Shown here in pieces: positions 24,444 through 27,799 of a DNA stretch of 27,799 nucleotides. The notes beneath the pieces are model-generated. The model searched no databases and was not told the DNA's origin. It saw nothing but the letters and a program-made list of their open reading frames with translations. Each line of letters opens with the position of its first letter. Position 1 is the first letter of the stretch. A program made the position numbers and the translations under genes. Origin of the DNA: a virus; IMG/VR virus record IMGVR_UViG_3300025293_000027, positions 1 through 27,799 of that record. One strand, given 5' to 3'.

Positions 24444-25238
24444 ATGACGGAATACACCGCCGAAAACCCGCTACGGGTGCTCTCGTTGGGTTGGGGGGTC
24501 CAGTCCTGGACGCTGGCAGCGATGAGTGCCCTTGGGGAATTACCACCACTCGACTACGCGGTCCACTGCGACACCACCCATGAAATGGCCGCAACGTACG
24601 AGCACGCTAAAAAGTGGACGCCGTGGTTGGAAGAGCGGGGCGTGAAGGTCGTAACGGTGTCGCCAAGTGGAGAACGGGCACTCGCGGTATCAATGAAACC
24701 CTCAAACTGGGTCACGATGATCCCGGCTTTCATCGGAGGGGATAGAGGGCAAGCACGCCGACAATGCACCGGGGCGTGGAAAATTGCTCCGTTTCGCCGA
24801 TTTGTTCGGAGCGTAATTGGACCCCCGCGCCCCGGCATCGTTGAATCATGGTTAGGGATCAGCATCGATGAATGGTCCCGAATGCGCACAAGCGACGTGG
24901 GTTACATCACGAATGTGTACCCCCTAGTTGATCAAAGAGTCAGCCGTGCTAATTGCGTGGGGTGGTTAGAAAGCCATGACCTCGACGTTCCCACCAAGAG
25001 TGCCTGCACCTTCTGCCCGTACCACTCGGGGCCATTTTGGAAAGCCCTCAAGAAGAACGGCGGCACTGATTGGGATGAAGCCATCCAGGTCGATGGCAAC
25101 ATCCGTAACGCCTGGTCAGAGCACGAGCTGTTCTTGCACCGCTCGGGCTTACCGCTAGGTGAAGCCATATCAATTCCAGAAGATGTCGGAGCAGAGCAGT
25201 TGGAACTCCCCTGCGATTCCGGCCATTGCTTCACGTAG
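24444..25238 (+). CDS. PAPS-reductase-like N-type ATP pyrophosphatase
   Basis: 264 aa; ATG at 24444. The N-terminus carries the PP-loop variant SLGWGVQS (14-21; the family usually has SLGGGVQS). Further motifs are CDTTHE (42-47), RQCTGAWKI (106-114), GISIDEWSRMR (138-148) and CTFCPYHS (188-195), matching the phage PAPS-reductase-like family. Such enzymes use ATP to activate a substrate, often for sulfur or nitrogen transfer. The phage family has no proven substrate. It is unlikely to be ordinary sulfate assimilation, because no partner genes are present. Codons are less GC-rich than the neighbours (TTA, GAA, AAA frequent), suggesting recent transfer. It lies four genes before the deazaguanine pair and could act with it; that is speculative. 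Confidence 0.8.
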   Translation: MTEYTAENPLRVLSLGWGVQSWTLAAMSALGELPPLDYAVHCDTTHEMAATYEHAKKWTPWLEERGVKVVTVSPSGERALAVSMKPSNWVTMIPAFIGGDRGQARRQCTGAWKIAPFRRFVRSVIGPPRPGIVESWLGISIDEWSRMRTSDVGYITNVYPLVDQRVSRANCVGWLESHDLDVPTKSACTFCPYHSGPFWKALKKNGGTDWDEAIQVDGNIRNAWSEHELFLHRSGLPLGEAISIPEDVGAEQLELPCDSGHCFT

Positions 25239-26374: not shown

Positions 26375-26391
26375 TCGTGAAAGGAAATTCT

Positions 26392-26922
26392 ATGAAATTG
26401 GAACTACGGCGAGTAAAGGGTGCAATCCTCTTCCTTGCCTTCATCGCCACGGTCTACGGCGCAAACTGGTCCCTGACCGAGTTTGGTTTCGTGTCGGTTG
26501 GCTTTGGGCTGCTTGCCCCTGCCGGGGTGTTCTTCGCCGGGTTGGCATTTACTTGCCGTGACCTACTGCATGAAACAGCCGGCCGGATGTGGGTGCTTAC
26601 CGCCATCCTGATCGGGGCACTGCTGTCGTGGTCACTTGAGGATGCAGGCCGGATCGCCTTGGCCTCTGGTGTCGCCTTTGGGATAAGCGAACTCGCAGAC
26701 TTGAGCATTTACGAACCCCTGCGTCGGCGCGGATGGCTTCGGGCTGTGCTTGCATCCAATGTGGTCGGATTCACCCTGGACTCCATTCTCTTTCTCTGGA
26801 TTGCCTTTGGGTCACTCGCTTACATCGAGGGGCAACTCCTCGGCAAGGGGTACATGACACTCGCCGCAATCGCTGCACTCTGGAGCATCCATGCTGTATC
26901 TGTCCGGGTGCGTGCGGCCTGA
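26392..26922 (+). CDS. yhhQ: VUT/YhhQ-family transporter for 7-deazaguanine precursors
   Basis: 176 aa from the ATG at 26392, with AAAGGA seven bases upstream. It has about five or six membrane spans and the family signatures: GFGLLAPAGVFFAGLAFTCRD (residues 37-57, shown here only in part by position), SGVAFGISELADLSIYEPLR (92-111) and ASNVVGFTLDSILF (121-134). YhhQ of Escherichia coli imports preQ0 and preQ1; other VUT proteins carry related compounds. Here it overlaps the DpdA-like gene by 32 bases, which implies that it supplies the base that the transglycosylase inserts. Homologues that are nearly free-standing occur in actinobacterial phages. The substrate is inferred from family and partner. 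Confidence 0.85.
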   Translation: MKLELRRVKGAILFLAFIATVYGANWSLTEFGFVSVGFGLLAPAGVFFAGLAFTCRDLLHETAGRMWVLTAILIGALLSWSLEDAGRIALASGVAFGISELADLSIYEPLRRRGWLRAVLASNVVGFTLDSILFLWIAFGSLAYIEGQLLGKGYMTLAAIAALWSIHAVSVRVRAA

Positions 26923-27529
26923 GTTCCGTCACCCAAATCTCGGGTTCATGCTGGGTCCGAATCAAGGGAACAAAATTCCCCCTGATCGATTGTGGGCTGC
27001 CGACAACGGTGCGTTTTCAACCGCGACCCCCTTTTCATGGGATCGGTTTGAGCATTGGCTAATGCAGAAGTTGGAAATCGCTGGCGAGCAATGTCTTTTT
27101 GTCGTCTGTCCAGATGTGCCCTTTGATGCCGGTGCGACGTTAGAACGATGGAAGAAATATCACTCCCGCATGACGCAGTTCAATCGTCCAGTGGCCTTCG
27201 TCACCCAAGATGGGATGACCATAGAAGACATTCCGTGGTCCGATTTTGAAACGCTGTTCATTGGCGGAGCGACGGAATGGGCGCCACCCACACGCATACG
27301 GTCAGGGCCGGGATCTGGGCCGTTCGTATCGGAAGCGCGCCGCCGAGGGAAGTGGGTTCACTTCGGACGTGTCAATTCCCTCCGCCGGCTGCGTGCCGTC
27401 GCATCAATGGGCGGAGACTCGGCTGACGGGACGTTCCTCAAATACGGCCCTGACAAAAACTGGCCGCGACTTCACCACTGGTTAGATTCCCTTGAAACCC
27501 AGCCCTCGCTACTACTCCCCCACCCATGA
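26891..27529 (+). CDS. dpdA: DpdA-like guanine transglycosylase (DNA 7-deazaguanine insertion)
   Basis: 212 aa; ATG at 26891 with GGAG five bases upstream, inside the transporter's end. It aligns motif for motif with tRNA-guanine transglycosylases: DNGAFS (38-43, like DSGGFQ), CPDVPFDA (73-80), QDG (106-108), FIGGATEW (123-130, like GGLAVGE) and HFGRVNSLRRL (157-167) followed by GGDSADGT (174-181, like GVDMFD). Asp38 and Asp179 are the expected catalytic acids. No tRNA-binding zinc domain is present and the chain is short, as in phage DpdA2-type enzymes that exchange guanine in DNA for a 7-deazaguanine base. Lower GC than neighbours suggests recent acquisition. The modified base cannot be named from sequence; preQ0 or preQ1 is most likely given the transporter. 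Confidence 0.88.
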   Translation: MLYLSGCVRPEFRHPNLGFMLGPNQGNKIPPDRLWAADNGAFSTATPFSWDRFEHWLMQKLEIAGEQCLFVVCPDVPFDAGATLERWKKYHSRMTQFNRPVAFVTQDGMTIEDIPWSDFETLFIGGATEWAPPTRIRSGPGSGPFVSEARRRGKWVHFGRVNSLRRLRAVASMGGDSADGTFLKYGPDKNWPRLHHWLDSLETQPSLLLPHP

Positions 27530-27542
27530 TTGAGGAGACTCT

Positions 27543-27799
27543 ATGAAAGACCCTGCAAACGTGCGCCGCGGCCGGCTGTCGAAGCAAAGAAGCAAAGCAT
27601 ACGAACGCGAGTGGGCCAAGGCGCTGGGCACGACACGCATCACCGACTCTCGTGGGACGCGTCAGCCGGACATCCGCGTCGGCCCTTGGGATGTCGAGGT
27701 CAAGTCACGCAAAGGCCACAAGAACCTCGTCGGCCTGATGGATGAAGCGGTCGCCAAGGCGAAGAAGGGTCAGACACCAGTCCTCGGGCTAGAGATCCG
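27543..27799 (+). CDS. PD-(D/E)XK nuclease-like protein, 3' truncated by the window end
   Basis: Starts at an ATG with GAGGAG about seven bases upstream and stays open to the last base (85 codons). It has a basic N-terminus, a Glu in the first helix (E21 or E23), and D43 and EVK (52-54) in QPDIRVGPWDVEVKS. This gives the D-X8-E-X-K spacing of the PD-(D/E)XK fold. The family includes Holliday-junction resolvases and restriction-like nucleases. A RusA/Hjc-like resolvase in phage replication is one option; a VRR-NUC type is another. The end of the gene is needed to decide. Confidence 0.7.
   Translation, partial: MKDPANVRRGRLSKQRSKAYEREWAKALGTTRITDSRGTRQPDIRVGPWDVEVKSRKGHKNLVGLMDEAVAKAKKGQTPVLGLEI

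Follow-up and report, generated by a model that had tools for sequence, protein, structure and literature searches.

Phages with 7-deazaguanines in their DNA, and the transglycosylase DpdA that goes with them, are already established. One branch, DpdA1 (phages 9g and CAjan; PHROG 887), is a DNA 7-deazaguanine transglycosylase of about 300 aa encoded beside FolE, QueD, QueE and QueC. Hutinet et al. 2019 described a further set of phages, their group 3, which carry DpdA and no preQ0 synthesis, some of them with the transporter YhhQ, and proposed precursor uptake for such DpdA-only phages (PMC6884629). In the same survey YhhQ was not correlated with any phage group, and Mycobacterium phage Orion, which has DpdA only and a host without the pathway, had unmodified DNA (PMC6884629). 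Escherichia coli YhhQ (COG1738) is required for preQ0 import, and its family is possibly mixed in substrate (PMC5372724).

The locus described here lies in the window, i.e., the entire 27,799-nt stretch that was analysed, which is the whole of IMG/VR record IMGVR_UViG_3300025293_000027. The presence of a phage terminase shows the window to be viral; this terminase has matches at 22-31% only, to phages of many hosts, and the window is probably a fragment of a viral genome. As originally predicted, a VUT/YhhQ-type gene and a transglycosylase-like gene overlap by 32 bases, with correct coordinates and both ORFs open on the same strand (Table 1). A GTG at 26377 is a possible alternative start for the importer. 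The overlap likely couples the translation of the two genes, and in relatives the importer and enzyme genes repeatedly overlap as well, by 29-38, 14-16 or 4 bases. A chance overlap of two ORFs was ruled out, as each ORF has numerous conserved relatives that are arranged in the same way.

Table 1. Coordinates of the importer/enzyme pair and of two catalytic-site codons in the window.
Feature	Position	Strand	Details
VUT/YhhQ-type importer gene	26392..26922	+	ATG to stop, 176 aa; open ORF
Small TGT-superfamily enzyme gene (DpdA-like, PHROG 15826)	26891..27529	+	ATG to stop, 212 aa; open ORF
Overlap of importer and enzyme genes	26891..26922	+	32 bases
D38 codon of the 212-aa enzyme	27002..27004	+	motif ADNGAF; Asp in 62/62; modelled at the end of beta 3
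D179 codon of the 212-aa enzyme, proposed nucleophile	27425..27427	+	motif DxxD; Asp in 62/62; in beta 8 of the model

Profiles for QueC, QueD, FolE and DpdA1 gave zero matches in the window, whose end at 27799 lies 270 bp past the enzyme gene. The claim that the two genes alone suffice is therefore not sustainable, since the window is a fragment and FolE, QueD, QueE and QueC could lie beyond its end. An ORF starting in the last stretch (27543-27797) is cut by the contig end; by eye it resembles a VRR-NUC-type phage nuclease, and it has no family match. Upstream of the pair, at 24444-25238, is a PP-loop gene (PAPS-reductase-like, PHROG 424), and the same kind of gene adjoins the pair in phage ReqiPine5 (locus L004, 5679-6596). 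This gene was considered for inclusion in the module as its third component and dropped, being present in just 6 of 61 clusters.

The importer matches Pfam Vut_1 with 50.8 bits (gathering cut-off 27.2) and PHROG 4899 with E 6e-39. Against TIGR00697, named 'queuosine precursor transporter', it scores 31.9 bits, below the equivalog cut-off of 50.95, and the corresponding E of 1e-7 supports, at the level of sequence, a place in the queuosine-precursor transporter superfamily; against the YhhQ equivalog it scores 28.3 bits where the cut-off is 252. All 59 proteins of the VUT alignment match both Vut_1 and TIGR00697, and their invariant residues include N25, R56, S92, D130 and K152. The call of a VUT/YhhQ-type transporter thus holds, by the Vut_1 match above cut-off and by superfamily. 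The structural model has six helices (pLDDT 95.7), and its best 15 structural rows are all ECF S-component or ECF-transporter chains (RibU, ThiT, BioY and others) with Z from 10.2 to 5.9. Values near 10 count as moderate for helical proteins, and the model suggests an ECF S-component-like fold. A sequence search from the importer for a solved VUT/YhhQ structure found none.

The 212-aa enzyme matches PHROG 15826 (E 7.8e-60); when matches with E values as high as 1 are allowed, just one other PHROG, a chance family, is added. PHROG 15826 is annotated 'unknown function', while several GenBank phage records label its members 'DpdA-like tRNA-guanine transglycosylase'. With the 212-aa protein, Pfam and NCBIfam returned zero families; tblastn retrieved relatives in 23 phage records, and a family-profile scan of viral contigs retrieved 406 stretches. 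The protein carries TGT-like motifs (ADNGAF 37-42, PD 74-75, QDG 106-108, GG 125-126, HFGRVN 157-162 and DSADG 176-180) that are conserved across 62 relatives, in all of which D38, F70, P74, D75, Q106, F123, G126, H157, G159, R160, N162, G174, D179 and G180 are invariant. Both residues originally named as catalytic, D38 and D179, are indeed Asp. Going by motif and strand order, we take D38 to be TGT D102, D75 to be D156, Q106 to be Q203 and D179 to be D280; by motif order, G125-G126 presumably equals TGT G229-G230. The only cysteines are at positions 7, 68 and 73, so the protein does not have the zinc motif CxCxxC...H of canonical TGT, and the family alignment has no conserved Cys cluster.

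Sequence comparison links the enzyme family distantly to DpdA1 (profile-profile match, hhalign E 1.2e-5). PHROG 887, the DpdA1 family profile, does not match the 212-aa protein itself, the family HMM scores -1.4 bits (no match) on DpdA2 of Vibrio phage nt-1, hhalign matched it to none of 13 TGTs, and solved TGT structures could not be linked directly to the enzyme by sequence. A fold search was therefore required. The AlphaFold2 model built on the family alignment is a (beta/alpha)8 barrel (pLDDT 92.1, pTM 0.89) whose strands 3 to 8 carry the invariant residues at their C-terminal ends, with D38, D75, Q106, G126 and D179 at those of beta 3, 4, 5, 6 and 8. Foldseek against the PDB placed tRNA-guanine transglycosylase at the top (E 6e-5), and VIA-align gave Z 14.9 over 198 aligned residues (rmsd 3.0 A) for the Z. 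mobilis TGT, its best 50 rows being 50/50 TGT at Z of about 14.7-14.9. Among the high-ranking matches in a structural search of a viral library, those with names were phage queuine tRNA-ribosyltransferases. Structure prediction thus yields a TGT-type barrel and keeps the protein inside the DpdA/TGT superfamily. The label of DpdA-like transglycosylase stands as far as the superfamily goes, by fold and motifs, but by profile the protein falls outside the characterised DpdA1 and DpdA2 subfamilies. Given the modelled TGT fold and the DpdA1 link on one side, and the lack of a zinc motif and of PHROG 887 and nt-1 DpdA2 matches on the other, the enzyme is placed in the TGT/DpdA superfamily as its own minimal branch, set apart from DpdA1 and DpdA2 in a comparison that covered PHROG 887 and nt-1 DpdA2. 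The DpdA3 and DpdA4 subfamilies were reportedly described by Cui et al. 2023.

The two genes recur together. Clustering of the enzyme loci at 90% identity left 61 non-redundant clusters, and in 44 of these a VUT gene is found near the enzyme gene (38 upstream, 6 downstream), mostly adjacent or overlapping. Gene content was counted on 30 whole contigs with the enzyme: Vut_1 is present in 20, QueC in 7, QueD in 4 and classical DpdA1 in 1. QueC occurs in 1/20 contigs with VUT versus 6/10 without it (Fisher p=0.002, a value that ignores shared ancestry). On the enzyme tree, no fewer than 3-4 changes are required to explain the QueC neighbourhood, and no fewer than 2-3 to explain VUT lying downstream; such independent changes indicate that the association of importer and enzyme was rebuilt several times. 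Importer and enzyme are a recurrent, evolutionarily rebuilt unit whose pairing is not accidental, and where the importer is missing, genes for preQ0 synthesis often replace it; both the repeated coupling and this alternative supply are direct observations. The loci L012, L026 and L053 have preQ0 genes with the small enzyme as the only inserter.

The coupling extends beyond this enzyme family. In four phages that have VUT and not the small enzyme, another TGT-type protein, weakly matched in one case, is encoded beside or near VUT: DpdA1-like matches were obtained for PEAT2 gp19 (E 3e-12), RHph_N3_2 EVB98_054 (3e-10) and Pam5_30 (2e-9), and a weaker one for X2_30 (2e-3). Within Fishburnevirus, Mycobacterium phage Ksquared has both genes intact (L001, 5424-6585; VUT is gp53 and the enzyme gp54), and in its relative Arib1 (L152, 3965-4297) the enzyme is absent and VUT is cut to 110 aa.

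Several loci show further arrangements. Locus L053 (1-5163) has three tandem small-enzyme genes, two QueC, QueD, a QueE-like ORF and a nucleoside-deoxyribosyltransferase-like ORF; the three inserters may reflect three sequence specificities or bases. In L082 (6001-7683), and likewise in L083 and L085, the genes for the enzyme, a short QueC and VUT follow one another closely. A profile search did not find QueD in the L082 contig, which would be consistent with CDG being imported and then converted to preQ0. In L056 (5926-7557) the enzyme has a C-terminal extension of about 300 aa with no assigned function, and similar long ORFs are present at the Catenulispora loci L102 and L103. Finally, in Escherichia phage phiG7 (L008, 4884-5476), which has a full 7-deazaguanine cluster, the small enzyme is divided between two ORFs that overlap; the interruption may mark a gene in decay or a frameshift from sequencing.

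Import and insertion as a genetic module is well supported by these observations. We consider it fairly likely that the overlapping genes form a salvage-type module for 7-deazaguanine base modification, combining import with insertion and with phage DNA as the most likely target. The VUT protein, as a solitary ECF-S-component-like carrier, would let the infected cell take up a free 7-deazaguanine (e.g., preQ0 or preQ1), and the minimal 212-aa TGT barrel without a zinc part would exchange guanine for it, most likely in phage DNA. D179 would attack C1', releasing guanine, and the imported base, held by D75, Q106 and G126, would be joined with D38 acting as general acid/base. Phage DNA would thereby withstand the nucleases of the host. 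We infer that the imported base is a 7-deazaguanine, that the target is DNA rather than tRNA, that virion DNA is modified and that the modification protects it from nucleases. The unmodified DNA of Orion, which has a DpdA homologue and no base supply, suggests that modification may depend on base available outside the cell.

The hosts bear on where the base comes from. Bacterial genome contigs searched with the single 212-aa protein gave zero matches; a search with the family alignment hit 27 bacterial loci, most of them in Actinobacteria, and we took these loci as prophages. Queuosine tgt is present in 2/21 host genomes (19/21 are without it) versus 33/60 of a phylum-wide sample, a comparison that does not control for kinship and thus shows that most hosts are without tgt, not that the phages choose such hosts. 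QueC above cut-off was found in 6/21. As tgt is absent from most hosts, the enzyme there would not be feeding an existing queuosine pathway, and the source of the base in most hosts would be the outside or the phage.

The main rival to a DNA target casts the enzyme as a tRNA-guanine transglycosylase of the phage, with imported preQ1 or queuine going into the anticodons of host or phage tRNA and thereby altering translation or shielding tRNA. The enzyme and TGT have a common fold and active-site order, motif comparison aligns the invariant Q106 and D179 with Q203 and D280 of TGT, positions occupied by His and Ser in DpdA1, and a phage could provide a tgt to the many hosts without their own. However, the enzyme is without the CxCxxC zinc motif and some 160 residues shorter than TGT, so that the known tRNA-binding parts are probably missing, and its profile is closer to the DNA-modifying DpdA1 than to TGT. 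We therefore regard a tRNA target as unlikely, if the most serious competitor.

Considerably less probable in our estimation is that the pair is an accessory of a full 7-deazaguanine pathway, the small enzyme being a second inserter or an editor removing or swapping the bases set by a classical DpdA, the importer merely topping up the base pool, and the remaining pathway lying past the contig end. That end does come 270 bp after the enzyme, and a classical DpdA accompanies the small enzyme in three phage genomes (Sonali, R29Z and phiG7); in Arthrobacter phage Sonali (L003, 5001-8878), gp81 is the small enzyme, gp87 the classical DpdA, and QueC/D/E are also present. The role of the small enzyme in these three phages could differ. 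In contrast, DpdA1 is missing from 29/30 contigs, QueC accompanies VUT in a single one of 20, and the three loci with preQ0 genes and the small enzyme as sole inserter also argue against an accessory role. Least plausible, to the point of being nearly dismissed, is that VUT takes up some unrelated purine or vitamin and that its closeness to the enzyme is the hitch-hiking of two useful small genes: COG1738 is heterogeneous, with other purines possible (PMC5372724), and the window importer is below the equivalog cut-offs. Against it, the two genes are coupled in either order, QueC replaces the importer, VUT is also paired with a second TGT subfamily, and decay is paired in Arib1.

Salvage of a 7-deazaguanine for DNA is directly testable in the cultured phages Ksquared, Aoka and ReqiPine5, with Arib1 and Ksquared as a natural pair for experiments. 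A broader version, that widespread phages, many on Actinobacteria not using queuosine, write environmental 7-deazaguanine into their genomes via a minimal TGT, is one that we put forward tentatively and hold to be somewhat doubtful. If true, the DNA protection of such phages would be set by the metabolite pool of the community, and their restriction resistance would depend on release by neighbouring microbes. An enzyme of about 200 aa would, in that case, be a useful tool for placing modified bases in DNA, and, if salvage is indeed its role, we know of no smaller TGT-type base exchanger. A PHROGs family of 'unknown function' can also now be named as a minimal enzyme subfamily.

Compared with known systems, the enzyme has its motif order in common with DpdA1 (DSGAF/DNGAF, D, GG, HGFGIT/HFGRVN and CDSS/GDSAD in DpdA1 and the 212-aa enzyme, respectively), but is shorter, and has an importer adjoining it instead of the preQ0 genes. 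With the TGT of Z. mobilis it has in common, besides the fold, the catalytic order D, D, Q, GG, D, in the face of no significant sequence profile match. The importer belongs, like E. coli YhhQ, to the Vut_1 superfamily with six helices, at 176 aa versus 221 aa. A close parallel to the window pair is gp18/gp19 of Pectobacterium phage PEAT2 (VUT family protein / queuine tRNA-ribosyltransferase), with an overlap of 31 bases, although gp19 belongs to a DpdA1-like branch and not to PHROG 15826. The group 3 phages of Hutinet et al. 2019 embody the same idea of precursor uptake (PMC6884629). Where that survey saw YhhQ uncorrelated with phage groups, the coupling found here is a clear transporter pattern, one enzyme subfamily being tightly coupled to an importer that alternates with QueC. 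The DpdA3/DpdA4 of Cui et al. 2023 may already cover the small-enzyme subfamily. As far as the literature consulted shows, what is new relative to Hutinet et al. 2019 is the tight coupling of this one minimal enzyme subfamily to an importer and its alternation with QueC, together with the converse finding that VUT also pairs with a different TGT branch.
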